Source: Meloidogyne chitwoodi (taxonomy: Eukaryota > Nematoda > Chromadorea > Rhabditida > Meloidogynidae). From it: a stretch of 64,000 bases of DNA. Shown one piece after another: positions 32,220 to 61,053 of this stretch (positions are counted from its first letter, which is position 1; each line of letters opens with the position of its first letter). Under the pieces are notes generated by a model. That model was not told where the DNA came from. It did not search any database and saw only the letters and a program-made list of their open reading frames with translations. A program made the position numbers and the translations under genes. The stretch lies in contig JACZZP010000016.1 of the NCBI GenBank assembly GCA_015183035.1, forward strand, positions 744,001-808,000. The letters run 5' to 3'.

Positions 32220-32711
32220 CTACGGATCTAAATGGTTAGTAAAATCACCATGAACACCTCTTTGTATAAAATTATGGTTCACCATCCATTCCCGCAACTC
32301 AGCTTTTTTTAAAAAAATAGTACTCAATTTGTATTTTTGATGCTCAGTTCTTTTTCTTTTTGCATCAGCAGTATATCCATATGCTTCAATTATTTCTTCA
32401 CTAAATTTGGTCAATTTAACATTTTCTACATAAAAATTTTTAATTTCCTCATTTTCATTTTTTTCTTTAATTCCAATTAACCAAATAATACAATTACTTT
32501 TTTTAACTGTTAATTTATCTAAATATAAATCATTATGACAAGGCTTAGAATATTTTTTTGGGGATGCATGACAATATTCAACATTTTCCATTTTGTTCTC
32601 TATATTTGAAAGAAGAGAGAGTCGAATTCGTGTTTCAGCATAATTGCAAAAGAGCGGGCCAAATGTAATATTTTTTTCATGGGAACAGATAATAACAAGA
32701 TAATTATCATA
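32220..32711 (-). pseudogene. 3' exon of a poly(A)-polymerase-like gene, truncated
   Basis: On the minus strand, a TTTTCAG acceptor at 32712 opens an exon that stays open to 32220. It is a close copy of the last exon of the PAP-like gene at 56698-57156 and corresponds to the RNA-binding domain of canonical poly(A) polymerases (regions around HASPKKYSKPCH and IWLIGI). The homology continues into the intron up to 32755 and then stops abruptly where Polinton sequence begins. No catalytic exons are present on this side, so this is the remnant of a disrupted gene. Confidence 0.8.
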
Positions 32712-32752
32712 CTGAAAATTTTAAAAATTATTTGGATAAATTTCAAATTAGA

Positions 32753-33784
32753 CTAACAACGAACGAAATGTTTTATTCCTTCGGGAGTTTTACGTGTCTT
32801 TAATATTTCAGCAATTCTGTGTGTGGTATCGAGAATTGTTGGAACCAGTTCTTCGCGGTAAAATATTCCTTCAATTTTTGTTCCTTCTAGGTCTTCTAGA
32901 TGATATATAGTTGGTATGCGTGCGTCGTTTACAGTAATAATACGAAAAAGCTCGTCAGTGTAATTGGCTAAATATCTTTTTTCGAATGTTCCTTTTTCTT
33001 TAGCGATACGAACAATTTGTCCAATTTCAAGTTTTTGTTTAGAATCCTCAACTTTATTATCTTTATATAGTCTTTCAAAAAGTTTTCTAGCATTTTTAAA
33101 ATTTACAGAATTAGGTTTTACACCTGTTATACGATTTACACTTGCATTTATTCCAGTTACAATATTTTGAACAGGTTCTATCCATCTCAGAGTATTTTAT
33201 TCGCTAAAATACCTATAAAGTCTTTCTTTAATTGTACGATTTGCTCGCTCGGCCATCGAAGCATGGACATCAGGACTGAATACAACACGCTTGTCTATGT
33301 CTTTTGATGAAAAATATTCCCGCATTTTTTTAGCTTGAAATTCTAAGCCTCTATCTGTATATAACTTATGTGGAAGGATTCCTTTATTTTCTATAAAAAT
33401 TTTCTCAAAGGCATTTATCATATCATTCGGACTTTTAGATTTTACAGGGGCAACAATCATCTTTCTGCTTAATACATCAATACAAACCAATAAATATTTA
33501 TATCCATCATTTTTTGAAGAGAGTTTATCAAATATTGCCAAATCAGCTTGCCAATCTGTATGAAGACCACTTGGATGTGTGACCAGTCTTGGAAAGCGTT
33601 TTTTCAAAGGCATGTGCATAGTATAAACACGCTGTTTATGCATAAAATCCTTAACATCCTGCATTTTTAATTTTGGAAATTTCCGTTTCGCCTCTTCAAA
33701 AACTCGTCTAACTCCTGCGTAAGAAGCCGGGGAATTTAACGAATAATAAATGTGCTCCAAATGTTTTTCTAAAGTTTTTCCCAT
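32753..33784 (-). pseudogene. Polinton integrase, broken
   Basis: Retrovirus-like DDE integrase of Polinton/Maverick elements, which inserts the linear element DNA. The catalytic core shows the first Asp in HTDWQADL, the second in YTDRGLEF, and the Glu in SMAERANRTIKERL. An in-frame TAA at 33197-33199 follows FSE. The same frame then stays open to 32753 and encodes the rest of the core, an SH3-like linker and the start of a chromodomain. That domain ends after about 20 residues exactly at the junction with the PAP intron at 32755, where a TAG is borrowed from flanking DNA. The start overlaps the upstream gene by 16 bases. The element is therefore doubly damaged at this gene. Confidence 0.88.
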
Positions 33785-34536
33785 ATTTTTGGTATAAATT
33801 TATTTTTTAGGGAATTTATAGGAGGGATTTTTACTAATACGGTTCTCTTCTTTTTCTTTCCTCCTCCAGTTTGATCACTGCTATTCCCATCTGTTTCTTC
33901 TTGAGACATACGAATCATTTCCTTAATTCGAGGATCTTTAGAAATTCGCCGAAAAAGAAAATTAAATCCTTTTGCTTTGTTTTCTCTCTTCCCAGTAATA
34001 TATTCAAGTACATGTTTAAAATTACTTTCACCAACACGTCTTCCTGGAACAAGAGTTTCAAACGTTCCATCTTCATGAATTTTAAATTTTTTCTTATTTT
34101 TACTTACATATTCTTCCAGATCATCTAAATATTCTCCTGCAATTATTCCTTTAAATCTTTTTGGATATCTTTTCGGTTGTACTGTTGAAGCAGGTTCAGT
34201 TTTTTGATGTTCATCCTCCAACACAGGTTTTTGGGGTATAGCGTTCCCTAAATAAGGAGTAACATCTGGCGTATTATTTTTTTTTGATTCTTCAATAATT
34301 ACCTTTTGAGGACGATTTTCAATTTCTTGTTTTAACTGACGTCTTTTTTTGTACAACCAATTATACTTGTTGGCTTTTGTTTCTTCACTAATTTTTTGAT
34401 CATCTAGAGTTTCTTTAAGTTGACCATCTGTTTGCGCTTTTTCTGTTTGTAAAAAGTCGTCTTTTCCTTTTATCATTTTAAGTAGAACAAGATATTCACT
34501 CTCAGGAACCATTATCATTTTCTTTGTGTGCTTCAT
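33769..34536 (-). CDS. Polinton protein of unknown role, 255 aa
   Basis: A single open frame with charged coiled-coil-like N-terminal half and a more ordered C-terminal half (residues about 125-215, including EYLDDLEEYV and a Phe/Arg-rich stretch). A Gly-Lys basic segment (GGGKKKKR) and a final hydrophobic tail follow. It overlaps the 117-aa gene upstream by 4 bases and the integrase downstream by 16 bases. It therefore belongs to one compact leftward gene string. The family is not recognised beyond its Polinton context; a structural or DNA-bound role is conceivable because of the basic tail. Confidence 0.7.
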   Translation of the reverse strand: MKHTKKMIMVPESEYLVLLKMIKGKDDFLQTEKAQTDGQLKETLDDQKISEETKANKYNWLYKKRRQLKQEIENRPQKVIIEESKKNNTPDVTPYLGNAIPQKPVLEDEHQKTEPASTVQPKRYPKRFKGIIAGEYLDDLEEYVSKNKKKFKIHEDGTFETLVPGRRVGESNFKHVLEYITGKRENKAKGFNFLFRRISKDPRIKEMIRMSQEETDGNSSDQTGGGKKKKRTVLVKIPPINSLKNKFIPKIWEKL

Positions 34537-34886
34537 TCTGTAATTTTATGCACAAGGTGTTCGGCTAAGGCCCCTAATATAGGAACTAGTATTGCTGCCA
34601 ATGCAGGACTACCTCCTTCTTGTAAATGTTTTCGCGCACTTTTTTCTGTTCTCGTTCTTGAAATCTTCCTATAAAAATCAGCAAAATTGACAAGTTTCTG
34701 TCTTTGTTTTTTATTTAAAATAAAATTATGTTTTAGAACGTTGGCACAAATTTCTACAATTGCCAAAATTTGATCGGCACTAGCAGTTAAAAGTAAGGCG
34801 TTTTTCTTTTTATTAGACTTTGTTTTTGCAAGCTTTTGAAGAAATTGATAATTTTCGCGAATATAAGGGCTGAAATTGAGTGGCAT
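34533..34886 (-). CDS. Small Polinton core-type protein, 117 aa
   Basis: The N-terminal half is a helical Lys-rich segment (LLTASADQILAIVEIC). A basic KKQRQKLVNF stretch follows, and a Gly-Gly then a hydrophobic C-terminal segment (PALAAILVPILGALAEHLV) end the protein. That plan, basic helix bundle then QEGG then hydrophobic tail, is found in small proteins next to the ATPase in many Polintons and resembles adenovirus-type core or membrane-active small proteins. Its start lies 25 bases after the ATPase stop. Its stop overlaps the next start (ATGA). Confidence 0.7.
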   Translation of the reverse strand: MPLNFSPYIRENYQFLQKLAKTKSNKKKNALLLTASADQILAIVEICANVLKHNFILNKKQRQKLVNFADFYRKISRTRTEKSARKHLQEGGSPALAAILVPILGALAEHLVHKITE

Positions 34887-34911
34887 AATAAAATTTATTT
34901 AAAGAATAAAT

Positions 34912-35514
34912 TTATAACGGTAAATATATACACATTTTTTCTCCTGGAAAAATTTTTGTGGATAGGCGAAAGTGTTCATCAGCGTTTGGTTGCATGTTTA
35001 TCAATAGATAAGAAAATCTCTCAGATGTAGCATCGCGATATGCTTCCAAAAAATAATCTAATCTTTTTGGAAATAGTTGAGAACCTAGTGTTCTTACCTG
35101 TAATAATCCTTGAGGATTTTTTGTCAAGAGTAAATAATGTGCATTAGCTCTTGCTGTTTTAATATTTCGGCCATATAAAGACTGAGTAACGAATATAATA
35201 CTAACTCCCCAATTATGAGAGCCCTTCGTGAAAAGCAAGTCAAGGAAATCATTTTCGATATTTAGCATTAGGTCATCAAGGACAAGAAGTTGATGTTTTT
35301 TAATAAGCTCTGGCTCCGGGACCCCGTTATATGTTTCTATTCCCATTTCCTTAAGTGTGAATATTGTTTCATTTATTTCGCCGAAACAATAGAGTATTTT
35401 TTCGGGTGGGGGCTCTACAAGTAATTTGCAATTTTTAAGAAATTTAAGAAGCCATTGCGTTTTACCACTTCCTGTAGCCCCAGAAATTATCATTGTAAAA
35501 GGTGCTTCAAACAT
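34912..35514 (-). CDS. Polinton packaging-type ATPase
   Basis: A FtsK/HerA-superfamily (A32-like) ATPase that in virus-like elements pumps DNA into capsids. The Walker A motif GATGSGKT lies at residues 12-19, the Walker B motif LLVLDDL at about 75-81, and a sensor-like IIFVTQSL at about 104-111. Its 200-aa length is usual for Polinton copies. It is uninterrupted and is the first gene of the leftward string. Facing it across 215 bases is the TBP-like gene on the other strand, so the two may share a divergent promoter. Confidence 0.9.
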   Translation of the reverse strand: MFEAPFTMIISGATGSGKTQWLLKFLKNCKLLVEPPPEKILYCFGEINETIFTLKEMGIETYNGVPEPELIKKHQLLVLDDLMLNIENDFLDLLFTKGSHNWGVSIIFVTQSLYGRNIKTARANAHYLLLTKNPQGLLQVRTLGSQLFPKRLDYFLEAYRDATSERFSYLLINMQPNADEHFRLSTKIFPGEKMCIYLPL

Positions 35515-35729
35515 TATATATTATTTTTTCTCATTATTAATTTTTATAGGGTATTTATATTAATAATTTCGCTTATGATGTGTGGCTTAGTGGATTGTTG
35601 CTATAATCTTTGTTAAAAATATATTCCATTACATTCTTAAATATAAAAGATAAACAAGGATGTAGTCGAATATATCATTAACAGGGATATAGAACAAACC
35701 CATAAGGCAACCATCATGAGTTTTTTTAG
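35515..35729. promoter_or_regulatory. Divergent intergenic region, ATPase and TBP-like genes
   Basis: 215 bases separate two divergently read start codons. The region is AT-rich with TATAAAAG-like and TATATT motifs near its middle. It ends TTTTTTTAG immediately before the TBP-like ATG, which is the form of a nematode splice acceptor and could receive a spliced leader. The promoter role is inferred from position only. Confidence 0.5.
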
Positions 35730-36351
35730 ATGAATACACCAACAATTCAGAATGTAGTTTCAACTATTACCTTAATAAACAAAGGTCATAACTTAGATCT
35801 TAAATTTATTTCTGAACAACTTGAAAATGCTAAATATAACCCAAAGAAATTTTCTGCTCTTATTATTAAGAATGTAGAACCTATTAAATCTACAGCTCTA
35901 TTATTTTCTAATGGACGGCTTGTTTGTGTTGGAACTAAATCTTCGTCGCAAGCTCTTGAGGCCACTAAAATGTTTTCTCAACAGATTGCAAAGGTTCAAA
36001 CATCAACTATTAAAGCAAATACGTTTAAAGTTCAAAACGTAGTTGCTTCGTTTAAATTTCCAAGAACGTTAAATTTACCAGGTAAAATTTTTTAATTTTT
36101 AATTTAATATTTTTTTTTATTAAGCTTTGTACGACACATTAAGATTTTTTCCTTCAGAAAATTTTGCAGCAAACATTTCCTTTAATCAGGAAATATTTCC
36201 TGGAATGTGTCTAAGGATTAAAAATTCTAAAATTGTAGTTTTGCTCTTTACAACAGGAAAATGTATAATTACCGGTGCACAAAAAGAAGAAGATATTTAT
36301 GATATTTATCATAAAATTTATAACGAAATCTCTATGTTTATGAAAAATTAA
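35730..36351 (+). CDS. TATA-binding-protein-like factor carried by Polinton
   Basis: Two exons, 35730-36081 and 36125-36351, joined across a 43-base GT-AG intron, give 192 residues: the whole TBP saddle. Both direct repeats are visible. Repeat 1 has PTIQNVVSTITL, AKYNPKKFSALII and ALLFSNGRLVCVG; repeat 2 has FKVQNVVASFKF, EIFPGMCLRI and VLLFTTGKCIITGA. The four phenylalanines that kink TATA DNA in known TBPs all have counterparts (KKF, LLF, EIF, LLF). It is divergent from the nearly invariant cellular TBP and lacks an N-terminal extension. It is on the opposite strand to its Polinton neighbours, between ATPase and NADAR genes, with its stop 2 bases from the NADAR stop. The element may use it to direct its own transcription, which is an inference. 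Confidence 0.9.
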
Positions 36352-36353
36352 TA

Positions 36354-36942
36354 TCAAAATATGCTTTCATTTATTTCACGGCGAAGTTCCATTAATAAAA
36401 TTCCTAGTTTATTGTCTCCATCCCATGAGCTTGGATCCTTTAATCGTTGTATATCGGAAATCATAACACCATTTGTCCAATATTTGTTAAAAGATGAGGC
36501 TTCAGCTATAAGTCCATTCCCAGTTCCTCGGATTTGTGAAAAAAGTTGAGCATTTTGTGTGAATTTAGCCCATAGGCCCATGTACATAATCTAAATATTT
36601 TAGGATGTCTTTACTGTATTAATGGATTACCTTTTCTCTAACGTTATTCCATTCATCAGAACGAAACCCTCGAATGCGTAACCCAATACGATGAATTTGG
36701 TCTGGATTGTTGAGTAGAAGAACATGTTCCGCAATTTCAAAATCTGCAAAATAACGAGCTTTTTGCCATACAAAATATTTTTCCATAGTTGAGAATTGGA
36801 TTCCTAATAAAGAGAAGCTTGATGGAAATCTGTTGCTGAAACCACATTGACGAGATTGGAAAATAAAAATTTTTTGTCCTTCATTTCCTATTAACTCTTT
36901 TGGAGGTAGAGAATTGTATGTTTGTTGTTGTTGAATATTCAT
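36354..36942 (-). CDS. NADAR-domain protein carried by Polinton
   Basis: Two exons on the minus strand, 36631-36942 and 36354-36590, with a 40-base intron, give about 182 residues. The fold of the NADAR (YbiA/RibX-type) family is visible: FSNRFPSSF near the N terminus, TMEKYFVWQKA with the conserved Glu and Lys, AKFTQNAQL, GTGNGLIAEAS, a YW in the WGxG position, and NKLGILLMELR at the end. Family members hydrolyse N-glycosidic bonds of riboside or ADP-ribose substrates; bacterial ones paired with DarT1 remove ADP-ribose from guanine in DNA. A role in reversing ADP-ribosylation of element DNA or of host targets would fit, but is inferred. It is tail to tail with the TBP-like gene and follows PolB on the same strand. 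Confidence 0.85.
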
Positions 36943-37129
36943 TCGTGTGAAAAGCCCGGAAATAGTTTCTAAAATTTAAACATTATATCTCAAAATAAAA
37001 TAAGTAACCTAGTTCGGGATCGCTTATCATTAACTAAAATTTTTTAAAAAAATATTTTATAGATTTAAAAAAATAGATATAGCAGTAAAGATTAACAAAT
37101 ATATACAAAAAAAAAATATTGAAAAGATT

Positions 37130-40100
37130 TTATTCAAAAGGATTTTTAATTGGATTTCCTCTATAACCGAAAGGGTAACAATCGAGATTGTCGTCGATAA
37201 ATCCTTTGTCGTATATTGGTGCGTAGCGACTAAAATTGTAAGAAAATAAAAATATATAAGATTTTGATTTTACCGTTTTTGATTGCGTGTTGTAACTTCT
37301 CCTTTACGCCAATTTGGTCGAAAATGAGTCCTTTCTAATGTAACAGGATCCTGTTCTTCTCCATATGCGTTGACCATTTTCTTAAAAATTAATTTTAAAA
37401 CCGTTTTTTTAAATTTTTAACCTTGATCTGATTGAAATCAAGTGGAGAATTTGCACTATCCCAACATCCACGACATTTGACAGTGTATTTGATCTCTCCA
37501 TTTTCTGTGCGCATTTTCATCGCGTACTAAACAAAAATTTTCATAATATTAAAATTTAATACCTGTTTACAACCTCCAATGTAAATAGAAATTATATGAT
37601 TATTTTCATATTCTCTGCTCATCATTCCAAGCATATCCCCAATACGAAAGGGTGGTGCTTTTCCCTTTGGATGCACAAAAAAGCAGCTGTCAGTATCAGT
37701 ATAAAGTAGTTTACATCCCGGAGCTATAAAAATGTTTTCCATGTATTCATACAGAAATACACGGGCTGTTGCTGTAGTTATAAGAGCTATGACTATATTG
37801 TACTTATCATGTGGACGAACGAACTCTTTTTTTGATTGATATGGCACCGCAAACAGGTCATTCGCTAACATTTCTACCGCTCCAATCTCTAGTTTAGGAT
37901 CGTTAAGCACACGATGTAATTCAACCGGGCATCGTGTAATTAAATCCTTTAAAAAAACTAAAAATTTTATTTTTATTTTACTAACCTTTGAAAGATTGCA
38001 TCTTAATGCCCACCGCCCCCATCTAAATTTTTACATTAATGAAAATAAAATAATAAAAAAAACAAGGAATTGTTGCAAGTTTTAGCCATATATCGCATTC
38101 CTTCATTTCGTTCGATCTTTTCTTTATCTAATAATATGCCATATTCCTTTTGATTGCGATTTAAAAAATTCTGTTTGAGACTTTCTTTTTTATCAGGATT
38201 TTCAGCATCACAAACGGAGTTAGGCCATCCGCTTGCTTGTATTTTTAGCTTCATCATATCCTGTACATAGGGACGTAGTAATTTGTCGGTCCATCTATCC
38301 CAATGATATACGCTGTAAATCCATATTGCATGGTATCCTTTCTTCAATGCTAATTCAAGTTCCACTGTACAAACAGTAGCTACATATCCTCTCTTTTTTT
38401 CTTCATGAGAACAAAGATTACGTCCCAATTCTTGACTGTATTTTTGTTCCAAGCGCCATGATATACCTGATGGTGCCTCGATTGCACATTGATGACATAC
38501 ATGAAAAATCTATTTAATTATAATTAATATAAAAATATTAACCAGTTTTCCATTAATCCTTTCTGGAATAACAGGAAGATAAAGATCCTCTGGAGGAATG
38601 ATAAATAATTTAAAAATTCCGCGATATGGAGATAGTTGGTTTGGAGTTCTCCAATCCACAGCCTTATTTATTTGAATTACTTCTGGATGCCCTAATTTAT
38701 TGAGTTTTCTTTTTTTTAATATAAATATTACCAATAGGATAGAATCCATAAAAATTCACGGCAGGGTAGAGACTAACTACATCATAACATGTGATTTCAT
38801 ATTTTTCAGATTGCCCCATTTCTTCAAGATCACATTTTAAACTTTGGGGTCCTGTTCTTCCACCCTTTATATTAATGAATTTTTTTGATTTTACTTAAAT
38901 TTACGTGAAATGCATCTCTCGGGAAAAGGGGACCAATATCAGGTAATTCATTGAAAAAGAGCTCCATTTCCTTGTTTTCCTTTAACTGCTTTCTAACATT
39001 GCATTCCCAAATCATTAAAGGACACAATCCTGCTTCTTCGATAAGTTTTCTTCGTTCTTTCATCTTATCCCTATTATACAGTGCTGTTTTTCCATTCAAA
39101 CAAATCTCATGGGGTTTATAAAGACTTAAATAATATTTATTTGAATAGAAATAAAAATACCATTTATGTCCGTGCCATGCACATCCCAGAAATTCAATTG
39201 CAATATCTTGTTCGTTTGGCATTCTTCGTACATATCCATCTAATATTAAAAGTTCTCCACTGGAAAGCCTAAGTCTGAACTCTCCCATAGCACTGTCTCG
39301 GTGTTGTACATCCGTACCTGTTTCATGGCATAACCATTGCATGTATTTCCGACCAATAACAGACTGATTACTATCCCTATGATATCCTTAAGCTCTATTT
39401 AAAATTTATTTTTTTAATAACAAACCATTATCAGGAATTATACCAATTTCCATAGGCTTCAAGTAATTGATACCTAAATTAATTTTAAAATTAATTCAAA
39501 AAAATTTTTTACAAAAATGACGAAGACAGGCACTAGATAACGTCAGAGACGATGATAAAACATCATCTTTTTTTGAAGAGTCTGGAGCAAGATCAAAAAA
39601 GAGTTGTTGGAATCTTACAATTGCGTAAGTTAGGATACGAACATCTTGCTCGCAGTATAAGCCAATCTGCTCTGCTAGACAGAATGGAACATTTTTGTTT
39701 TCCTCGTACCATGATTCAAAATTTGCTCGCCTCTCTATTCCCATTGATTCAGGATAATAATATTGACGATCGGGAAGCCCTTGTAAACGAATATTCATAT
39801 GATTGTTATAGTTCCATCCATGTGGAAAAAAGGCCTTTCCTCCTTCATCAATTTCAAGTCCAAGAGCTTTTGGTAATTGTTCAAGCTTTAAAGCCATCCA
39901 GTTAAACGAATCGCGAAAAGATATCATTGGAAATATCCCTCTCCTTCTTTTAAGCAAAACTTCGTAAAGTTTATTTCCTAAAATTTTTTGAAATTTTGAA
40001 GTAATAATTTTAAACTTGCCAGATCTTGTGATGTTTAGCTCTATTCCTGTTAATTTGATTAGTTCACCCAATAACAAGTGCATATCATATCTTCTAAATA

Positions 40101-42083
40101 AACATTTTCTATTAAAATGTTTTAACAAACCCTCCATAGTGAGATATCGCATAAGTATTTACTCTTCTTTCTTGTCCTAAGCCATAAATTAGCCAATTTA
40201 AAAATTCCGCTAGTGGGTTTTCATATGTTGCTGCTGTCCATGTATTCATGCGCTTACTTCTTTGTCCACAGATATTACAATTTGACGAATATTCTGTCTT
40301 CCACATGTTGTTTAAAATACATTGCGAACATAGTAATAAAGCCTAATTTTATATATATATATGTAAAATAATATTGAACAAACCGATACACAGTTAACGT
40401 GGTGAAGTTGATAATTATCATCTTTAAAATGAGTGTCTTTTTTTAATACAACCTCGAGTTTTTGCCATTCTTCATAATTGCGTGTAGGTGAAATTAATGC
40501 ACATTCAAAATCAAAAATTATCTAAAAAAAGTAATTATTAATTTTTATAAATATTTTTTACCAGAATATAGTCTTTTTGTTTATTTAGAACTATTGGTTG
40601 TACAAAACAAGGTTCCTCCGTTCTGTGAATTGAATGACAAAGTGCACAAAATCGAGAATAACAAATATGTCCGTGTTTATTATTAATCGATCTTATCTCA
40701 TCCGATTCTTCTGATGTTTCTTGATATCTCTCTCTTTTTGTTCTATAAATTTGCCCACATTCCAGACATCTATATTTATATGTATTGTGTTTTATTTAAA
40801 AAATTTTACCTATTAAAAAGTTTACAAATATTCTTAATAATATGTTCGTTATAGCATTTAGGATTTCTGAAGATGTTATTACAATTCATACATTGCGTAA
40901 TATATCCTGAAATTTCCTTACAAGGATAATCTATTCCAATTCCACAACATCGTGCACATTTTGCTATACATTTTGCTCGATGTTCAGTTTTCGATTTGTA
41001 TGTTGATTCACAATCAAGACAATAATAATTTGAGCCAAATAAAGTATTGAGTTTTCTAATTCCCCAAAAATGCTCATCCTTCAAATATAGACATATTTCT
41101 TTTTTTGCGCGTGCTTTTGCTTTCCAAACAGGTCTCATTCTTCCATATTCTCCAAAAACAGAAATACGATATTGCCCTGGATATTGGAGATCAAGTAATT
41201 TTTGAACAAGCGGTATATGTTCTTCCACATTGTAATTTTTCTTATTTAAAGGATAAATAATTCGTTGTTTTATCATTTCCATAATCATAGTTTTTATAAG
41301 ATGGGTCCTTTTCTGCCGCGATTTATTATCACACCCTTGTGTTAACCTTTGAAACTGCATATTGGAAATTGCTGCGTTTGATTTTTCATTATAAAGCATC
41401 GTAAGTTGAACTGCCAGGAGCAAACAATGTCTATTGTATGGAGCTTGCAAATCATCATTTTGAACCTTAAATTTAGATTTCTATAAAATAAAATTATTTT
41501 ACCGGAATTAAATTATTGACATTAATCCCATGATGTATTTCTCTTCTTTTTCTCCCCCCACCTTCACGATCCAACCGCGATAATCTAAGAGCCTCTTCAG
41601 TCGACGGACCCATTACAATCTTAATAAATAAGATTAATAGAAACTATTAAATACCTCTATATGAATCGGTTGACTGTAAATAGAAGGTCTTCCCATCCTT
41701 TGCCCACTTTGATCAACGGTATCGAACTGTTCCATGACAACTTGAGGAGTATTTTGCGCTAGACCTCGATATGGTACTTGTATGGGCCTTTCAAGTACAG
41801 AACTTCTAATTATTATTGAGCATTTTTGAGATCTGGCTCCTGCCGCACGATAAGCACGAACAAAGAAGTGATCAATCAATTGTTCTAATAATACTTCTCT
41901 TCCATTTGGAGCTTCGTCCGCATTGATAACTGTAAACGATGCTCTAAAAAAATTAATTTTTATCTATTTTTTAATTTTTTACTACCTGAATACCCCAATT
42001 TTAAAGCGCGCACTTTTAATATGCTCCACTGAATCTTCCCTAAAAAAGCATCTGATTTCTGCAGATGAATGTTTGTAGGCCAT
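37130..42083 (-). CDS. Polinton DNA polymerase B, about 19 exons
   Basis: Protein-primed-type family B polymerase, read from an ATG at 42083 to a TAA at 37130-37132. Exons by eye: 41986-42083, 41655-41943, 41503-41619, 40810-41465, 40562-40769, 40384-40521, 40131-40342, 39513-40093, 39426-39473, 39161-39386, 38905-39124, 38732-38864, 38543-38692, 38064-38509, 37986-38022, 37563-37946, 37422-37526, 37274-37380 and 37130-37229. Cysteine-rich segments (CLDC, CARC, CMNC, CLEC) precede the exonuclease motif IFDFECA in exon 6. Exo motif II is YAISHYGGRYD and exo III is YCEQDV. Polymerase motif A is DVVSLYPA, motif B CNNSLWGR and motif C YTDTDS. No stops or frameshifts were found once introns are removed. 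It appears intact while the integrase is broken. A 42-base in-frame segment at 39978-40019 may be an extra GC-AG intron. Confidence 0.9.
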
Positions 42084-42200
42084 CTATGAAATAATTTTGT
42101 TTATTAAAATTACAAAATATTTCGGTACAGAACCAATGAAAAAACAATGAACATAAAAAATTTATATTTATTGAAAATTAAAAGTTGTTAAATCACTATT

Positions 42201-42881
42201 TCACCAAGTACTATCATCTTCATTTGTATCTAAAATTAGTCTAAAATATTTAAAATAAATTTTATTTACCTTCATGTGAAACAGTCCAATCAGTAGATGA
42301 AACTTCATTATTCCCTTGCGTTGACGTACTTGCTTCTCTCGTTATAATTATTGGAGTTTCTAAATTTTAAATATTAATCTTACACATTACAAAATATTAC
42401 CATCTTCTCTTTTTGGTCTGTTAAAAAGACCCAGAGTATTTGCCGTGTGCATGTCTATTTTTTTCCACATTTCATTTTCTGGGTCTCCTAAGCGCCAAAA
42501 TAAATTCTTTTGTATAAGATCAATCATTTCCTAAAATTATATTTTTTAACCTTCAAATTTTAGATAACTGTATTGTCCATTATTTCAAGATTTTTGGCTA
42601 ATAGCATATTGATTTGATCAGTAGAAAGTCCTGGGTAGTTTTTTCTATGCCAGCTTAGTGTTGAAAGGTAAAGTGCAGACATTAGCATTTTAGACTCCTT
42701 TTTGGTTTCTTTTAGAACCTTTTCGCTCTCATTTGTTTTAGTACACTTCTTCTTCAGGATTATCTTCATCTCCTCTTTTTGCCACCAGTTCATCTTAATT
42801 GCAAAAAAAATATAACGTTGATTGAATAAAACTAACAGTATCCCTATATTGCTCGTATTGTCCGTTTTGATTTTCCTTCAT
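42201..42881 (-). CDS. Polinton gene of unknown function, acidic tail
   Basis: About five short exons on the minus strand, from an ATG at 42879-42881 to a TGA at 42201-42203. The first exons are polar and Lys-rich (MNWWQKEEM). A middle helix region (MSALYLSTLSWHRKNYPG) follows and the end is acidic (TNEDDSTW). One donor (before 42560) is weak, so that border is uncertain. No family recognised. It lies immediately upstream of PolB and in the same direction. Confidence 0.55.
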
Positions 42882-43012
42882 TCTAAAACTGGTTTTTTTA
42901 ATTTAAAAAATGCAAAAAAAATATTAGTCAGTAATTTTACAGAAAAAAACTCATAATATTTGTTTAACATTTTATTCTTCACTATTCAAAATAATTTTTT
43001 CACTAAATAAAA

Positions 43013-44470
43013 TCATTTTGTGACTGTCTTGAAGTTGCAAAAGTTCTTATAGATGAGTGATTGGTAATCGCGATTCATTATTCTGCAGTCCGAGCAACAC
43101 TTGAAATATTTTTTTAATTTTAATAATTATAAGTACTATATAGTGCAGCGCATATGTAAGACCAAGTTCAAAAGAAACTCCATTCTTATTAAGAAACAAA
43201 TCACGCGCCTGGCTTTTCTGTAACTGTTCGCACTTAGCACACTAAAATAATTTTATATTTTTTTATTATATTTAGTTTTACCTGATAAAGAACCCACACA
43301 TATTTCAATTTAAGAAGTTTCTTATCAGCTTCAGTTTGACAGCTTTCTCCAAGTTTATAGTACATGACCCCTGCCACTAAAAAAAGTTTTTATCTAAAAA
43401 GTATAAAATACCTTTGTCAAATGTTTTTGTTTGCGAACTTCCTTCTCCATTTTTTTTTACTCGTCCATCAGTTATTGCCCCTAAGTATTTTAATTTTTTA
43501 ATTTACAAGAACTTTTCCTTACCGATACTTCGACTGTAATAATCTCCGAGTGTAATATTTTTATCAAGGTCATCACCACATATCACTATTTTAAGCACGA
43601 ACGTCCCTCCTTCCCCAGCTTTATAAAGATATTCTTCTTTCTTCAGCTGGTTGTCCTTACAAACGTTGCATAAATGAATGAATATACCCTTTCTAGGCTT
43701 TTTTAACAAATCAGCTTGGTTTAGAAGTTGTTGCGGCACCAGTTTTGAATAGCGTTCATGACCTATATAGTTTTATTTAATTAAATATTCAAAAAAAAAC
43801 GTACGTTCTTCTTCTAGGCGTTTATATTCTTCCTCGTCATCTCCCAAATCAATAATATCATCATACTCTGGTTCATCTGACTGTACTTCATCGGCACAAT
43901 TCAAAATTTTAGCCCACTTTTCTTGTTTATTTACCTCTTCTTGTTTCTTAAAAAAATAATAAATAATATAATTTAAATTATAAGTACATTTTTTATTCCT
44001 ATCTTTGCCTTCTTTGGTATAGGTGGATGACATCCTGATTTTCCTGAATTGGATGAAGTAATTGAGCGTCGTCGTTTTGCATCCGCCGCCTCTTTCTTTT
44101 TTTTCTGGTCTTTCATAAACGCACGGATTTCTTCTAATTCTCCAGAATTCAAATCCTCTATCGAATCGCCTTAAGTAAAGAATCTCTTAAGTATCTAAAA
44201 CAACATAAGATATATCTCTACTTACCTTTTTCGCATACGCTATCATGCCTAACGTTTCCATTTGCTTGCTCAATGACACCTGCAGAGAATAAAACCAATT
44301 TAAAAAAACTATAAATTGATTTATTTCCTGCCTTGTTCATTGTTTTCCTTAGATCCTGCTAGTTCTTCGCTATTCTCTTGTCCTGTAATTTAAAAATGTT
44401 TTTTTATTTTATTATTCTTACCTTGTTCCTTTTTTTCTCCAAAATTTTCTTTATTGGAACTGTTGGACAT
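43013..44470 (-). CDS. Polinton gene of unknown function with CXXC pairs
   Basis: About ten small exons from an ATG at 44468-44470 to a TGA at 43013-43015. The N-terminal third is polar, with Asn/Glu runs and a KKKKEAADAKRRRS basic patch. An acidic stretch (DDIIDLGDDEEEY) leads to a cysteine-bearing domain: HLCNVCKDN, then CQTE, CAKCEQL and CCSDC. The spacing suggests one or two zinc-binding knuckles. No match to a Polinton capsid, protease or terminal-protein family is visible. One intron near 44330 appears to start with GC. It is the last gene before the element fades out, and could be replication- or transcription-linked. Confidence 0.55.
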
Positions 44471-45576: not shown

Positions 45577-46003
45577 TTAACCTTTATAAAACTTTTTACC
45601 TAAAACATTTTGTTTTTCTTCTCTTGCTAACTGAGCTAAATAATTTTCTTTTCTTTTTTGCTTATTTATTTTTCTTTTTGAGTCACCCATTTCATTGTCC
45701 TTTTTAATAGTAATTGGAGCTTTTTTATTTAAATTTTTTTCGTCAATTTTTTTTTGATAATTCTAAATTTGTTTTTTTAAGTTCAGCTTCTTTTTTCATT
45801 CTTTCAGCTTCTTTTTCATTTTCTCTTCTTTTAATAGGACTAATTTGATTATTTTTTTCATTTTCTATTAATTCATTTATTTCTTCTTTAGTTATATCAA
45901 AATCTTCATAATTAATTTCAAAATTTAATTTTTTTAAAATTTCTTCAATTCCGATATATCCAACAAGATCTTTTAAATATACTTTTGAATTTTTGTTTGT
46001 CAT
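45577..46003 (-). pseudogene. Lysine/glutamate-rich protein, copy 1, frameshifted
   Basis: The start MTNK at 46003 follows a TTTTTTAAG acceptor-like site. The first 80 or so residues match the intact copy at 60379-60837 closely (KVYLKDLVGYIGIEE, then RRENEKEAERMKKEA). A run of nine adenines (plus-strand T run 45747-45755) puts the frame into a stop. After it, a different frame resumes similarity to copy 2 (SKRKI..K, LGKKF) and ends at 45577. A one-base homopolymer change, or an assembly error, explains this. Function unknown; it is predicted to be a soluble coiled-coil protein. Confidence 0.7.
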
Positions 46004-46254
46004 ATCTTAAAAAACAAAAAAATTCTTGTTAGAAAAAACAAAAATTTCTTTACTTTTAGGAAAAGAATATATTTAAATATACAAAAAAGGAATGTAAAAA
46101 TTCCAAAAGTAAATTAAATATATTTATTATAGCAGCCGAGACTATCCCAAAAAACGCATAAATTAATTTTGAAAGATCTCCAAAAGCATCAATCCAAGCA
46201 TCACCTTTCCCCAAACGCACAAACAACAGGCTTGAAGGAAACAGCCGACTATTT

Positions 46255-48871
46255 TTAAACAAAAAACTCACAATTTTTTAAAGCTTCAACGTTATTAGGA
46301 TTTTGTAGAAAAATAGAAGAATATTCTTTACACATACCAATAATCCAAATATTGTATGTATCATATATTTCTCGGGTACTTTTTTGTTTATTGTCATATT
46401 CAATTTCTTTCCATTCATTTTCAATAACTTTTGAACTTTTTTTATTATTTTTTAACTCAAGTTGTTCCAAAACATATTCTGTTATTTCTGCCTATGAATT
46501 AATTTTTAATTAATAAAGTAAAATATTTTTAAATAAAATTACCAGTAATATTAACATTTCTTTTTCTTTAGTTTCAGCAAAAATAATCTCATCAGTCTCT
46601 CTACATTCCATTAAAATTTTGTCATATTTAATTAATAAATTTATTTGTTTATCTTCCCAAATTTTATTCAATTTATATTCTATACTTGTTTTAATTTGAG
46701 AATTATTTTCAAGAAAAAGATTTTTCATCCAACGGACCCAAAGTATTATTCTCAAAGAAATTCTGTTTGCAATAATTGATTGTTTATTTGATTCTGGATT
46801 TATGGCATTGGATAAATGTTCTTTAGTCCGATTATCGTCAGAAAACCCTAAAAACAATTTATTAAATATTTTTTAAATAATTTTTATTAATATATCTTAA
46901 ACAAATTTTTTCCCATAAAAATCAGAAAATTATGCGTTTAAAAAGTTGCAACTTTTATCTAAGGAAATAAATTCAATCAAAAAGTAAAAAAATACAATCG
47001 CAATTATTTAATAAATCAGTCATCAGTCCATTATCCGCAACAATTTTCCTCATTCTTGTAAGACTTCCAGGAGTCTTTTTTATTATATCTTGAAATTTCT
47101 TCAAATTATCTCTCACTATATTAACATTCTTATCTTTTATAAGAATTTGGACAATAAAGTAATAATTATCTAAATTAACTTTATCATCAATACAATTATC
47201 AGCATTCCATTCATCTAATTCTTTTTTATAATTTATTTTATCAGATTTTTTTACCGTACTGTCAAGATAAACGTAATTAACCTTTTTACTAAATTCATAG
47301 ATCAAACATAAAGTACGGGTTGTAAAGATATTTTCGTATTGTTTAACGTTTAAAATTTCATGTTTGAATTTTTCTATAAGCTTTGAAAACTAAATTTCAA
47401 AGATTAATTTTAAATTAAAGTTTTTATAATTTTATACATGCTTTTCTCGATCTATCTTTTCAATTGGAAATTCGGATCGATTATTAAAATTGTCAATTTG
47501 CTGTCTTAGATATAATGGGACATAAATGCGAAGTTCAATATTTTTAGATTCTTCAGATTCGATTTTTTCATCAATAAATTTTTTTAAAAGATAAAGATGT
47601 GATTCAGGTAACAACTTTTCTGAAAACAACAAATAAATATAAAAACTAATAAAAACTTTTATAATAAATAAATAAATATAGGTAACTTAAGTCAGTCAAA
47701 CTAATAAACGCTAACACGCCGATCACTTACAAAATAGATCGTTGCAAACTTAAGAATAAATTACTTCTGTTTATATTATGTATTTATTTAAGATAAATAT
47801 TCTGAACTAAAAATATTCTGACGTATAAAAAATTAAAAATACAAAACAGAATTACCCAAACAATTCAACATTATTCACTTAAATATTAATGTTCTGATTT
47901 TAATTCTGAAACTATTAAATAAAAGTACACCTAGTTGTAGCAATTCTGGAAACTTTTCTTCAAGTTTAAGAAAATAATCGTCTTCCACTAATTTAAGCAA
48001 ACGTTTTTTAATATTAATTTCATTATCTTTTGTTCTAATTTCAGTTATAATTGTAGATTTTGATAATATTTGATCACTAATATAGTAAAACAAAATGTCA
48101 TTTTTTACCTAAAATTAATATATGTTAAATTAAATTTACATATAATTTTAGTAAAACAAATATCACATATGGCTCATTACCTGTATCAGGGATGGGCAAG
48201 TTTCGGGTTTCGGAAGTTTCGGATTTTTCGGGGTTTTAGGTCATTTTTATTTCGGATTTCGTATTTCGGTTTTTATTTTTTTACATTTTATTTCGGATTT
48301 CGTATTTCGGATTTCATTTTCCAATTTTGCCCATCCCTGACCTGTATAATAATTATTCATATAAAATCATATTTTACATATATCAAAACCCGAACCAGGA
48401 TTAGAACGTGTAGTTCTTGCTTTTTAGAAAAATATATTTTAATTTAAATCATAATTGTGTATAATTCAAAAAAAAATCACTAATATTCTTAAGAGCAATA
48501 TGTAGTTGAAGGAAGAGAGCGATAAGTTACTCTGCGCTCTCTGCATTTTTGCACTTGTACACTTTCATTTTTTATCAATTTTATTTTAAATTTTTTATTT
48601 TACTTTTTAGAAAAATAAATCTTAATTAAAAAAGACCTTTCTCTATTTTTAAAATAATTATTAATTTAAATAGAATTTATTTAGGCTTTTAACTATTTAA
48701 ACAGAATTATCAACTTTTTGCGTATAAATTGGTAGCTAAAGGAAAATTTAAAAAACTTACAGAATTTAAACGGGACATTATAGCCTTCGCTGGATTTGAA
48801 TCCTTTCTGTCAATATTCCAAAATTCATATTCTAATTTATCATTAACATGTTTTATATCAACTTTAGGCAT
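46255..48871 (-). CDS. Unknown multi-exon gene, family A copy 1
   Basis: Six exons by eye: 48761-48871, 47931-48108, 47438-47619, 46996-47389, 46543-46847 and 46255-46491. The protein begins MPKVDIKHVND and is about 465 residues, rich in Lys, Asn, Ile and Glu and mostly helical. Recognisable conserved stretches versus copy 2 are SDQILSKSTIITEIRTKDNE, LLPESHLYLLKKFI, PGSLTRM and LRIILWVRWMKNLF. No signal peptide or known motif is seen. Its second copy lies at 61054-63458. The first intron is interrupted by a hAT-type MITE at 48187. I cannot name the family. Confidence 0.7.
48187..48339. mobile_element. 153-bp hAT-type MITE
   Basis: The ends CAGGGATGGGCAA and TTGCCCATCCCTG are exact inverted copies, flanked by the 8-bp duplication ACCTGTAT (48179-48186 and 48340-48347). 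The inside consists of TTTCGGATTTCGTATTTCGG repeats. It sits in the first intron of family A copy 1 and is absent from copy 2, so it inserted after the duplication. Confidence 0.9.
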
Positions 48872-53348: not shown

Positions 53349-54280
53349 TTTTCCTTTTTATATAAATTAATTTAATTTATATATTTTTTAATATTTAATA
53401 AAATATTAAATATTTAAAAATTCTTTTTTTTTATGTTTAATCGAATTAAAGAATGGGAGAAAAGCTAGGCAATATAACTAAATGCCAATGAATAATCCTC
53501 TCTCATTATTTGTGTGGGGAAGATTTCGAAAGTCTTTTGAGTGTTATATCTAGCTAAAATAGATTTTCTCTGAGTGTATAACAAGATTTTTTTATTAACT
53601 TTAATTTTTCATTTTCTATAATCTCCTTAAATTATTTTAAAAATTTTAAAAGAAGGATAGTGTAAAGAGCAAAATCAGACATGTGTTGCCTATTGAATTT
53701 TTGCATGTGACAAAATTTGTATTTTGTATTTTTTCCTTTTAATTATAAATGTTGTGAACTTTAAAAATGTTTTGGTAATTAAGAAAAAATATTTATTCTA
53801 AAATTTATATTTATTTTTTCAATTAGATTGGGATTATAATAATTTTGCTTGCATCAAATAAATTCTCAAAAAATTTTTTTTTGTAAATTTTTATATTCTA
53901 AGTTGTCTATATATTTTTAAATTGTCCTTTTTAAAAAATAAAGGTGTTCCAATTTAGCCCTTATCTCTTGTTCATATAATGTACTATTAAATTGCTTTGG
54001 TAATATAAATTCTGATAAAGAATAATTGCCAAATTTGTTATATTTTTTTGTTTCAAAGGGAAAACAATATTTACACTTTTGGTTTACTTAACTTTTCAAA
54101 AATTTCATTATTCAATCAAAAGTAAATAAAGAATTTCATTTTTTATTTCGTTTCCGGTTACTCTTTTATATTAATTTTATTTTTTTCTTTTTTCTAAAGA
54201 ATATCTTAACCATTCCCTCTTTCTTAAATATATTTATTTGAAATAAGAGGCAGAGTAAAAATAAGGATTGAGAAAAGCCT
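53349..54280. other. 5' flank of the secreted-protein gene
   Basis: AT-rich; likely holds the promoter of the leftward gene. Nothing specific recognised. Confidence 0.4.
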
Positions 54281-55015
54281 CAGAGACGCTTGAGTCAGAG
54301 ACGCTTGAGTCAGAGACGCTTGAGTCAGAGACGCTTGAGTCAGAGACGCTTGAGTCAGAGACGCTTGAGTCAGAGACGCTTGAGTCAGAGACGCTTGAGT
54401 CAGAGACGCTTGAGTCAGAGACGCTTGAGTCAGAGACGCTTGAGTCAGAGACGCTTGAGTCAGAGACGCTTGAGTCAGAGACGCTTGAGTCAGAGACGCT
54501 TGAGTCAGAGACGCTTGAGTCAGAGACGCTTGAGTCAGAGACGCTTGAGTCAGAGACGCTTGAGTCAGAGACGCTTGAGTCAGAGACGCTTGAGTCAGAG
54601 ACGCTTGAGTCAGAGACGCTTGAGTCAGAGACGCTTGAGTCAGAGACGCTTGAGTCAGAGACGCTTGAGTCAGAGACGCTTGAGTCAGAGACGCTTGAGT
54701 CAGAGACGCTTGAGTCAGAGACGCTTGAGTCAGAGACGCTTGAGTCAGAGACGCTTGAGTCAGAGACGCTTGAGTCAGAGACGCTTGAGTCAGAGACGCT
54801 TGAGTCAGAGACGCTTGAGTCAGAGACGCTTGAGTCAGAGACGCTTGAGTCAGAGACGCTTGAGTCAGAGACGCTTGAGTCAGAGACGCTTGAGTCAGAG
54901 ACGCTTGAGTCAGAGACGCTTGAGTCAGAGACGCTTGAGTCAGAGACGCTTGAGTCAGAGACGCTTGAGTCAGAGACGCTTGAGTCAGAGACGCTTGAGT
55001 CAGAGACGCTTGAGT
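54281..55015. repeat. Perfect minisatellite, 49 x 15 bp
   Basis: The unit CAGAGACGCTTGAGT is repeated 49 times without a visible change over 735 bp. Because 15 is a multiple of 3 and the unit holds no stop in several frames, long frames run on both strands, giving five-residue repeats (ETLES, SQRRL or SSVSD). None has a signal peptide, splice sites or flanking domains, so I treat it as non-coding. Degenerate half-units continue to about 55140. A copy number this uniform implies recent expansion or gene-conversion-like homogenisation. Confidence 0.95.
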
Positions 55016-55225
55016 CTACGTAAGAGGCACTTTGCTGAGGAACATGAGTAAAAGAAACGTGATTTTGAGAAAGAGATAGTTGAGTCTGAGTAAGAAGCAC
55101 TTAGGTGAGACACTGAGTCTGAGTCAGAAACATTTGAGTCTCAGTATTTATGTGTTTTGTTCTTTTAAAAAGTTCGTAAGTTAAATGTTCTTATTGTCAA
55201 GATATTTTAAATTTATTATTTTTTG

Positions 55226-56697: not shown

Positions 56698-59625
56698 TCA
56701 CTCTTTTTGTATAAAATTATATTTCTTCATCCATTTCTGCAAAGCATCTTTTTTAAAAAATAAAGCACTCAATTTGTATTTTTCAGATTCAGTTCTTTTT
56801 CTTTTTGCATCAAATGTTTTTTTATATGCTTCACTTATTTGTTTACTAAATTCGGTCAATTTAACATTTTCTACATAAAAATTTTTAATTTCCTCATTTT
56901 CATTTTTTTCGATAATTCCAATTAACCAAATAATACAATTACTTTTTCTAACTGTTAATTTATCTGAATATAAATCTTTATGACAAGGCTTAGAATATTT
57001 TTTTGGGGATGCATGACAATATTCAACATTTTCCATTTTGTTCTCTATATTTGAAAGAAGAGAGAGTCGAATTCGTGTTTCAGCATAATTGCAAAAGAGA
57101 GGGCCAAATGTAATATTTTTCTCATGGGAACAAATAAGAACAAGATAATTATCATACTGAAAATTTTAAAAATTATTTGGATAAATTTCAAATTAGACTA
57201 ATAATAAAAATTAAATTTTGAAAATAGGCCTTAAAAGTCAAAAAACCATAGGGAGAACCAAGTTCACATTTGTGTTTAAAAATCAAAAAGTAAAAGAAAA
57301 GCTCATTCGAAAGAGCTAGTCAAGATACGTCGAATGATACCAAAATCATCGATATTTGATGAAATTGCAAAAAGTTATGATTTATTTAAACTTGTAAGAT
57401 ACAAAGAGAGCAGCCGCGGTAATCACTTAAGCTATTTCCTTTCAATTAAATGCAGAAGAGAAAGATAACTTACTCTGCGCTCTCTTCCCTTGTTTTTAAA
57501 TTTACCTACTACATTTGGTTATTTTATCATGACTTTTTTTTTAATTTATTTAAAAATATGAACTAAAATTTAAAAAATAAATAATAAAATTAGATTTATT
57601 TAAAAACTAAAATTTATTAAATTATAGGCCAATTTTTGAGAAATAGTTTTACCTTTTCTCCAAACGGTCCACCATCAAGCCATTTCTTCCATGATTGTTC
57701 AAATAAAGATAAATTTTCTTTGTTCTCACTCAACTTTAGTTCATTAAAATCTTTTAGTAATAAAAGTCCTAAATTTTAAATATTTCTCAAATTTATATCA
57801 AAATTACCATTATTTATCTCATTTTTGATAATAATCTCAGTACTTGCATTAATATTAAATCCAACATCTTGTGATGGGTAACCAAGATCAATAATAGGCC
57901 AAACTGCTGTTTGATGTTTTTCTCGCTGTTCTTTGCCCAAAGTTTTATAAAACCTATATTCTTGGCGTTCACTAATAGCTTCATTAAAATCCCAATCAAT
58001 CGGATTTTCCAAGTTTATAACTCTTTCTTTACTTAAAGGCAAATTAAACAGTTCAACAAGAAATACAAATAATTTTTCAATTAATTTATTTGTCCCAAGC
58101 TTTGGATTTTCTATAACAATTTTGCCTACAATAATATAAATTGAAGTACTATTTAAAAAGCCAAATTGACCACTATATATAAAATGCTCTTAAAATGTTT
58201 TTAAAAAAATTATTTTAATTAAATTAAAAAATAAATTTACTTTCAGCCCATAATTTAATTGTTAAAAATATTATTTTCAATTTATCAATATTATTTCCAA
58301 GCAATTCTTTCATACGCAGGGTTGATCGAAGAGCTAAAAATTTTTTAAATACTAATTTTATAAAATCAGCGTGTTTTTTTTAATTAAAAAAAAGATATAT
58401 ATTTATATGCACAATAGAGGATTTTCATTATTAATTAAAATTTACCAGAAAGTGATAGAATCATTCCTAAACGTCTACTCGACTTTGCAATAAAATCAGT
58501 TTCATTTTTAAAGTATTTATAAGGGTATTTTTCATTAAATAGTTTAATTTCTTGATCCAATTTTTCTACTGTTAAAGATTTGTTATCTTCAAATAATCTT
58601 TCAAATGAATCCTCTTCGATAATCACAAATGAAAGATCAAAATCTATACCATAAAATTTTAAATTAATCAATTTTAATCTACGATTATTAATTCGTTTGA
58701 CATAATCAACTGATTTATTCTGAAAAAGAATTTAGTAATAATGTAAATTCTCACAAAAAGTATTTATGTAGAAGCTATTTTTAAATCCCCATTAGTGATG
58801 GGAAAGTTCCAGTTCCGGAACTATGCAGTTCTAGTTCTGGAACTACCAAATTTCTGGAACTTGTTCCGGAACAATAACTGGTCCTGAACTAGTTCCTCAC
58901 CCCACAATAGTTCCAGAACTGGAACTATGAAAATTAAAAATGCAGTTCCAGAACTGGAACTAGTTCCGTGGAAATTTTGGAACTTTCCCATCACTAATCC
59001 CCAGGGGTTTATTTTAAAGTAAAACAGTTTCTGAGAATTTTGATAATTAAATTTAAAAAATAGAATTGATGATTAAAATGAGTAATTTTAATTACTGAAA
59101 ACCAATAAAATAATTTAATTAATAAATTATTAGTAATTCTACCTCGCATAAAATACAATAAAGTGAATAATCTCCTTTTTCCATGCCAAAAATAGTTTGA
59201 GTTCTTTTTAATATATTATTAACACATTTTCTTTGATAATTACAATCATAATCACCGAGAAAGTCAGTTTCAAATTGTGTATTTGAATAACTTTTGAATG
59301 GGACAAAAATAATTCCATCAATATCAGATTTATTTGTTGAAACGCCTAGCGTTTGTGAACCGTAGATTATTAATTTTGCAATGTTTTTAGGGTCTTCCAT
59401 TTTTTCTTTTTTAGCCTCCTCAGTTTTAGTCTCCTCAGATATTTTCTCACGATAAGAAAATGGGGTCTTAATTTTAATTTAATCGAGTTGGTCTATAATA
59501 AAATAAAATTTTACCCAATTTGTGATTAATGTGTTCATATCTCTAATAGCCTTTCTAATGAGTTTCCATTTAGGATCCATCTTATTTATTAAATAAAAAT
59601 CATTTTCTTTAAGCTTTTTTTGAAG
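56698..59625 (-). CDS. Poly(A)-polymerase-like protein
   Basis: Exons by eye: 59515-59625, 59143-59466, 58446-58719, about 58237-58340, about 57811-58198, about 57654-57775 and 56698-57156. The nucleotidyltransferase core reads YGSQTLGVSTNKSDIDG, giving the Gly-Ser and the Asp-x-Asp pair. The third Asp lies in FYGIDFDLSF. The central domain has KLWAE and, near its end, YPSQDVGFNINASTE, corresponding to the YPxQNxxxNVxxST segment of nuclear poly(A) polymerases. The last exon is the RNA-binding domain. It is strongly diverged from canonical PAP but keeps its full domain order and catalytic acids. The true start is not found; an open segment at 59755-60180 may belong to it. A truncated copy of its 3' end lies at 32220. 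A hAT MITE sits in the 58720-59142 intron. Confidence 0.82.
58793..58996. mobile_element. 204-bp hAT-type MITE
   Basis: Ends TAGTGATGGGAAAGTTCC and GGAACTTTCCCATCACTA are exact inverted copies. Flanks ATCCCCAT (58785-58792) and ATCCCCAG (58997-59004) match in 7 of 8 bases. The inside is built of GTTCCAGAACTGGAACTA-like units. It lies in a PAP-like intron and is unrelated in sequence to the two other hAT-type elements here. Confidence 0.85.
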
Positions 59626-60378: not shown

Positions 60379-60837
60379 TTATTTACTCTTAAACTTTTTA
60401 CCTAAATCTTTTTGATCTTTCCTTGTCTTCATCAATTCTTGCTGAGCCAACAACTTTTCGCGTCTTTCCTGTTTTTTTATTTTTCGTTTCGACATTTGAC
60501 CCTTTTCTTTGGCCTCTTTAAAAAGTTGAGCTTGTTCCTTTAATTTTTCTTGTTCAACTTTTTTTGATAATTCTAAATTTATTTTTATAAATTCAGCTTC
60601 TTCTTTTTTGATTTTCTCAGCTTCTTTTTTCATTCTTTCAGCTTCTTTTTCATTTTCTCTTCTTTTAATAGGACTAATTTGATTATTTTTTTCATTTTCT
60701 ATTAATTCATCCAATTCTTCTTTAGTTATATCAAAATCTTCATAATTAATTTTAGAATTTAATTTTTTAAAAATTTCTTCAATTCCGATATATCCAACAA
60801 GATCTTTTAAATATACTTTTGAATATTTGTTTGTCAT
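60379..60837 (-). CDS. Lysine/glutamate-rich protein, copy 2, intact
   Basis: A single frame of 152 residues from MTNKYSK to KKFKSK. A short N-terminal domain (VYLKDLVGYIGIEEIFKKL) is followed by a long charged helix, likely coiled coil (ERMKKEAEKIKKEEAEF), and a basic end (SKRKIKKQERREKLL). The start follows TTTTTTAAG. It is the intact counterpart of 45577-46003. Soluble, no signal; function unknown. Confidence 0.7.
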   Translation of the reverse strand: MTNKYSKVYLKDLVGYIGIEEIFKKLNSKINYEDFDITKEELDELIENEKNNQISPIKRRENEKEAERMKKEAEKIKKEEAEFIKINLELSKKVEQEKLKEQAQLFKEAKEKGQMSKRKIKKQERREKLLAQQELMKTRKDQKDLGKKFKSK

Positions 60838-61053
60838 ATCTTAAAAATTTTTTTTGTATAGAATGAAGATTCTGAACATTTTGGAAGAGAAAAAGTATAT
60901 TTTAATATATGAAAATGGGATGTAAAAATGCCAAAAGTAAATTAAATATGCAGCCGTGTCCACCCCAAATTAATTTTGAAAGAACTCCGAAAGCATACAT
61001 TCAACCATCCCCTTTCCCCACAAACAAAAGGCTTGAAGGAAACAACCGACTAT

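Follow-up and report, generated by a model that had tools for sequence, protein, structure and literature searches.

A TATA-binding protein gene carried by Polintons of the nematode Meloidogyne chitwoodi

The TBP gene and its Polinton neighbourhood

The TATA-binding protein (TBP) marks where the reading of a gene starts. In this study, we analysed a TBP gene in a 64,000-nucleotide stretch of M. chitwoodi DNA (the window), whose GC content is about 16-32% per 4-kb block. A partial Polinton, a virus-like mobile element, spans roughly 32.7-44.2 kb of the window. Its gene order is integrase, two small genes and ATPase (all on the minus strand), TBP (plus strand), and then NADAR, PolB and further frames (minus strand). 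The rve integrase, A32-like ATPase and PolB neighbours were confirmed by Pfam or by copy-to-copy homology, which identifies the element as a Polinton. TBP-carrying Polintons of this genome were assigned to two families, A and B, and the window copy belongs to family A. The features are as follows.

32753..33196, minus strand: integrase, second part, end missing (homology between copies)
33197..33799, minus strand: integrase (rve), first part, ending at a stop (PF00665, E 6.6e-11); a single unbroken frame in several other copies
33769..34545, minus strand: Polinton gene U258, function not assigned (homology between copies)
34533..34898, minus strand: Polinton gene U121, function not assigned; common to families A and B
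34912..35520, minus strand: packaging ATPase of the A32 / IVa2 kind (PF04665 26.1 bits, PF02456 23.3 bits, both above cut-off)
35521..35729, no strand: intergenic region of putative function that separates the divergent ATPase and TBP genes, with TATAAAA at about 35642, 88 nt ahead of the TBP start codon, and a further TATAAAA 34 nt ahead of the start codon of the ATPase
35730..36081, plus strand: TBP exon 1, open frame with a GT donor, kept in 16 family-A copies (PF00352)
36082..36124, plus strand: TBP intron, 43 nt, GTAAAA..ATTAAG, phase 1; position and phase as in the host TBP and TBP2 intron
36125..36351, plus strand: TBP exon 2 including the stop, conserved in the other family-A copies
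36357..36590, minus strand: NADAR-domain gene, second exon (PF08719, E 1.9e-15)
36619..36975, minus strand: NADAR-domain gene, first exon (PF08719, E 3.8e-12)
37527..40158, minus strand: PolB, four large exons (37527-38030, 38036-38509, 38872-39387 and 39496-40158), conserved between copies; DNA_pol_B_2, E 1.1e-9, on 39496-40158, whereas Pfam matched none of the three remaining exons
40541..41480, minus strand: cysteine-rich exons ahead of PolB, probably its N-terminal part, with same-order homologues in other copies; no Pfam match in 40806-41480
41634..44186, minus strand: conserved Polinton frames (41634-41963, 42560-42877, 43506-43772 and 43773-44186) with homologues in loci L013, L022, L032, L033 and L034

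The integrase has a stop and a missing end, and beyond it the window yielded no match to a capsid or protease; we therefore regard this Polinton copy as damaged or partial. Damaged as it is, it still has an open TBP frame. A sequence-only reading of the window had placed the TBP gene between the ATPase and PolB genes. The ATPase does adjoin TBP on the opposite strand, but the NADAR gene (36357-36975) intervenes before PolB.

Three other observations were made in the window. Beside the element, minus-strand frames at 32220-32720 and 56701-57165, 24 kb apart, are 84% identical in protein; they may be a different mobile element, one that has cut into the Polinton. A long short-tandem-repeat array at 54224-55100 is open in several frames (SETLE / TQASL / SDSSV). 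Similar minus-strand frames of unassigned kind lie at 45580-47690 and 60382-62420, with a repeat spacing of about 14.8 kb.

The TBP gene at 35730-36351 (plus strand) has two exons and a 192-residue product with both repeats; the gene model and PF00352 agree with the earlier description of such a gene with four DNA-kinking phenylalanines. A 181-aa gene model with a later acceptor was ruled out, because it drops an LYDTLR-like segment that is present in the 15 other family-A copies and in database relatives. Searched with the 181-aa model, PF00352 covered both repeats in two stretches (135 bits, whole-protein E 6e-40 in Pfam), and a plant TBP in PDB was a sequence match (E 6e-36). F41, F59, F142 and F159, which we take to be the counterparts of the four DNA-kinking phenylalanines, are present together with both central asparagines. 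Judged by its sequence, the window gene is a true TBP. Predicted models of two database relatives had a pLDDT of 93 each, with TBP-DNA complexes as best structure matches: 1cdw_A for the A-type relative P0003 (E 2e-18) and 7egb_P for the B-type relative P0146 (E 9.5e-16). By extension from these models, the window protein most likely adopts the TBP saddle.

Recurrence, constraint and origin of the Polinton TBP

The genome (47.5 Mb, 30 contigs) was searched for TBP and Polinton ATPase genes. PF00352 gave 46 matches at 22 places; 16 of these are family-A Polintons, 3 are family-B Polintons and 3 are host genes. A search for the ATPase, whose counts are lower bounds, gave at least 62 matches: 16 in family A (84-100% identity), 3 in family B, 35 other near-full-length ones (44-49%) and 8 fragments. 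An intact GT-AG two-exon TBP gene was found beside the opposite-strand ATPase at all 16 family-A ATPase loci, and a chance insertion is excluded by this recurrence. The sequence-only reading had asked whether other elements of the genome have a TBP at the same site, and family A thus answers it in every copy. In family B, TBP lies beside the ATPase at 3/3 loci, with the frame split in two in the C3 copy. The family-B protein is about 22% identical to that of family A, and its gene is without intron, between PolB and an ATPase-adjacent PAZ-like gene. None of the 22 PF00352 places falls at the 35 other near-full-length Polinton ATPase loci, and a 2.5-kb stretch read beside one of these contained no TBP. 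Past the TBP, the family-A stretches that were read contained NADAR in 10/16 and PolB in 8/16, so that a position between ATPase and PolB holds for 8 copies. The NADAR-domain gene (ADP-ribose / NAD-linked) is itself Polinton cargo adjoining TBP in those 10 stretches.

Further Polinton features were found in other family-A copies. In copy L031, an adenain-like protease was detected (PF00770, 23.4 bits against a cut-off of 21.3). A 461-aa frame between a pX-like frame and the protease is the putative capsid gene, which we name from its place and size; it had no sequence match in Pfam, PHROGs or PDB. One family-A copy has Polinton termini, with a perfect 34-bp terminal inverted repeat (TIR), ends about 21.4 kb apart and the 6-bp target duplication GCAGAA flanking both sides. 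No TIR was found in the window copy or in 57 other loci examined. A small PAZ-like gene was observed in family-A and family-B Polintons (L031:4128-4622, plus strand; L030:6255-6814; L009:3659-4024; L028:5420-5727, minus strand). Its PF02170 score of 24.4 bits is under the cut-off of 28.8, and an Argonaute-2 PAZ matched with E 4.6e-4; such a stand-alone PAZ might serve the element as a decoy against silencing by small RNAs.

Relatives were also found in other species. Family-A-type proteins (24 in total) occur in M. hapla, M. incognita and M. enterolobii entries. Family-B-type proteins also occur in Meloidogyne; the 33 in total include some that are unlabelled, one from a tunicate and some archaeal ones. 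The M. enterolobii entry P0145 is a PAZ-like region fused to TBP, and since this fusion mirrors the family-B neighbourhood, the gene context is probably shared with that species. Many annotated TATA-box-binding proteins in Meloidogyne proteomes are thus probably element genes rather than host paralogues. A scan of IMG/VR for TBP relatives gave 101 pattern matches, none of which was confirmed.

We compared nine of the 16 family-A copies for constraint. The dN/dS of TBP was 0.14-0.37 in 34/36 pairs; in the two remaining, near-identical pairs it was 1.44 (L009/L010) and 0.86 (L014/L016), from a handful of changes. For the ATPase, dN/dS was 0.02-0.16 in 21/36 pairs, dS being saturated and the ratio not computable in the other 15. 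For the integrase, it was 0.06-0.14 in 27/28 pairs. The element TBP is under purifying selection, which is weaker than that on the ATPase and integrase.

Next to this overall constraint, the DNA-binding surface was compared with the rest of the protein, using the 111 columns that do not vary among 16 cellular TBPs; 15 of these columns we take to be DNA-contact columns. Family A (16 rows) kept 85% at DNA-contact columns versus 37% elsewhere, a level reached by 0 of 10,000 random sets of columns. Family B (10 rows) kept 80% versus 36%, with 1 of 10,000 random sets as good. The host TLF, used as control, kept 27% at DNA-contact columns versus 39% elsewhere. Among individual positions, T222 is V in 16/16 family-A rows; in family B, V169 is T and a tyrosine replaces the fourth phenylalanine. 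Positions presumed to contact TFIIA and TFIIB were changed in several rows. Position 191, on the TFIIA side, has the charge reversal E191K in 14/16 family-A rows. On the TFIIB stirrup, position 284 is altered in 16/16 family-A rows (E284N in 15, C in one), and E286 is lost in 10/10 family-B rows and kept in 16/16 family-A rows. E191 and R205 are retained in 10/10 family-B rows.

In a 48-row tree, family A (100/99), the nematode TBPs (97/98) and family B (100/100) each formed a clade. In a 53-row tree, the AU test rejected family A grouped with nematode TBPs (p 0.0067) or with host TBP2 (p 0.0145), for groups that were named partly after the tree was seen and in the presence of long branches. 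This places the family-A TBP outside the host TBP group, as the sequence-only reading had expected, and the TBP was neither tightly grouped with host paralogues nor unique to one Polinton. When 12 of the 14 family-B-side rows were held together with family A, the grouping was rejected (p 0.0066, 53-row tree), but this constraint split off two B relatives; with all 14 rows it was not rejected (p 0.235, 48-row tree). Family B with nematode TBPs was not rejected (p 0.206). The family-A Polinton TBP intron is in phase 1 and lies exactly 15 residues past the conserved second-repeat asparagine; host TBP and TBP2 have an intron at the same point and in the same phase. Because position and phase are shared with host TBP, descent from a cellular intron-bearing TBP gene by DNA capture is suggested. 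A recent copy of host TBP was ruled out by the identity of about 39% to host TBP and the two AU results above. A TLF-like paralogue was also ruled out, since the share of DNA-contact columns kept is 27% in host TLF and 85% in the Polinton TBP. The earlier argument against a recent host copy therefore stands, and the intron adds an older capture to it: the sequences point to an old capture from a cellular TBP gene and not to recent copying of the gene in this host.

The host genes themselves lie apart from Polintons. The canonical TBP (L025) is 97% identical to a Meloidogyne TBP over the stretch compared, as fits a root-knot nematode host, and two further host genes encode a second TBP (L024) and a TLF (L027). 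Within ten-kb stretches surrounding L024, L025 and L027, no Polinton gene apart from TBP was matched. L024 (G000 C29:1699859-1700972) evolves faster than the canonical TBP.

TATA boxes and the role of the element TBP

Polintons are thought to depend on host transcription. We searched for TATA-like motifs before the element genes. TATAWAW was present within 110 nt of 15/23 hand-picked gene starts, compared to 6.5 (sd 1.9) in shuffles, with 0/300 shuffles having as many. The shared upstream motif that the sequence-only reading had proposed to look for was found at the putative capsid gene, which is preceded by AGTATATAAG in 15/15 family-A copies (77-100% protein identity). GTATATAAG lies 37-40 nt before the capsid ATG in 14 of these copies and 50 nt in one. 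The box AGTATATAAG is unchanged across family-A subfamilies although the spacers diverged, and it also stands before later virion-module genes in two subfamilies. Genome-wide, AGTATATAAG-N20-32-ATG had 40 matches; 21 were in family-A elements, 14 of them at the capsid start and 7 further ones 0-3 kb downstream of capsid starts. There is no excess outside family A, because 19 matches were found there compared to 25 for a reversed-pattern control. Neither AGTATATAAG nor GTATATAAG occurs in the window. AGTATATAAG was also seen at G000 C16:67480 and C22:19602, in each case 1.3-1.4 kb upstream of the ATPase of a Polinton without TBP.

Outside family A, the capsid gene was not preceded by AGTATATAAG in two family-B loci and one B-like locus (0/3) or in 13 other-family loci (0/13, several being near-copies of each other). 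Family B and B-like loci had no TATA before the capsid gene (0/3), though B carries TBP; in family B, TATAAATA lies 45-48 nt ahead of three genes. TATAWA was present within 90 nt of the capsid gene in 2/13 other-family loci. In TBP-less family-C Polintons, TATATAAA or TATAAAA lies 38-41 nt before the protease-preceding gene in both loci read. Since the family-C sites and the two TATAWA sites lack an element TBP, TATA use needs no element-borne TBP. The link between box and TBP is thus circumstantial, weakened but not removed by TATA-like sites in some TBP-less elements.

Because the DNA surface is kept and an exact conserved TATA box stands on a late-type gene, the best reading is an element-encoded TATA factor that serves the Polinton's own promoters, and we consider it probable that the gene was captured long ago and kept as a working part. 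A Polinton lineage would long ago have captured an intron-bearing cellular TBP gene and retained its function. The saddle-folded product would bind and bend TATA boxes on element DNA, the putative targets being AGTATATAAG before the capsid gene and two later virion-module genes. It may then draw in the host RNA polymerase II machinery via host TFIIB, and the altered TFIIA and TFIIB contact points could lessen dependence on, or control by, host TBP regulators. As the sequence-only reading proposed, the protein may thereby redirect the host polymerase or insulate the element from host control. That the protein binds the AGTATATAAG box, which polymerase it serves and what the element gains are all parts of this proposal. 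More tentatively, animal Polintons may have acquired TBP, possibly twice (A and B), as an element-specific promoter factor acting on AGTATATAAG before A virion genes and TATAAATA before the three B genes.

It is also conceivable, though unlikely, that the element TBP competes with the host, occupying TATA boxes or host factors and thereby dampening or shifting host transcription during replication, with the element promoters using host TBP. The DNA surface is kept while E191K, E284N and the loss of E286 alter the presumed factor contacts, and TBP-less family-C elements apparently get by on host TBP, both as expected of a competitor. However, E286 of the TFIIB stirrup is intact throughout family A, as are E191 and R205 throughout family B, and the element's own capsid gene is marked by a conserved TATA box. 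TBP functions with all three polymerases and bends DNA, and the sole TIR seen includes TATATA; on these grounds the protein might serve Pol III or another DNA transaction, such as replication start or packaging, and not Pol II. We consider this quite improbable, as the boxes lie 37-50 nt before coding ATGs in all 15 capsid copies, like Pol II TATA promoters with short leaders. A host TBP copy carried as a passenger without function would fit the host-like intron position and the evolution of TBP faster than ATPase and integrase, but it is very improbable given 16/16 intact family-A copies, dN/dS of 0.14-0.37 between diverged copies, the kept DNA surface, and TBP in other Meloidogyne species and in two element families.

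If the more tentative reading of an element-specific promoter factor is right, a mobile element would start its own pre-initiation complex with host polymerase II. A Polinton with its own selected, family-wide TBP would be a small natural test of re-addressing a promoter factor to private promoters.

Comparison with known systems

Searches of an open-access library turned up no paper that describes a Polinton with a TBP, and a term search of PMC11071308, PMC11071296, PMC10120064 and PMC12220804 did not return the TBP term. The family-A elements resemble other Polintons / Mavericks in their integrase, A32-like ATPase, adenain-like protease, PolB, putative capsid, and TIR with target duplication; they differ in carrying TBP, plus the NADAR gene in 10/16 stretches. 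The element TBP shares with nematode cellular TBP, a TFIID subunit, the two-repeat saddle, the four kinking phenylalanines, the central asparagines and one intron position and phase. In contrast to it, the element protein is about 39% identical to the host's, has no N-terminal tail, has an insert before the second stirrup and changed TFIIA/TFIIB contact positions, and groups apart in the tree. TLF/TRF2 is likewise a TBP paralogue, but host TLF and Polinton TBP differ in the DNA-contact columns kept (27% vs 85%).

DNA viruses with their own TBP are the nearest parallel. In the parts of these papers that we consulted, TBP is reported in 59% of mirusvirus genomes (PMC10132985), among the conserved genes of Mimiviridae and relatives (PMC3620924), in Yellowstone Lake phycodnaviruses (PMC4602308), and sporadically, as TATA-binding proteins, in putative mirusvirus-derived elements of an alga (PMC10675990). 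Mirusviruses, mimivirus relatives and algal viruses have large genomes, and the cited mimivirus and phycodnavirus lists include other transcription genes. In contrast, TBP is carried here by an integrating animal element of ~21 kb, with no other recognised transcription factor in the stretches read. Capture of a core transcription factor by an animal transposon would be rare.
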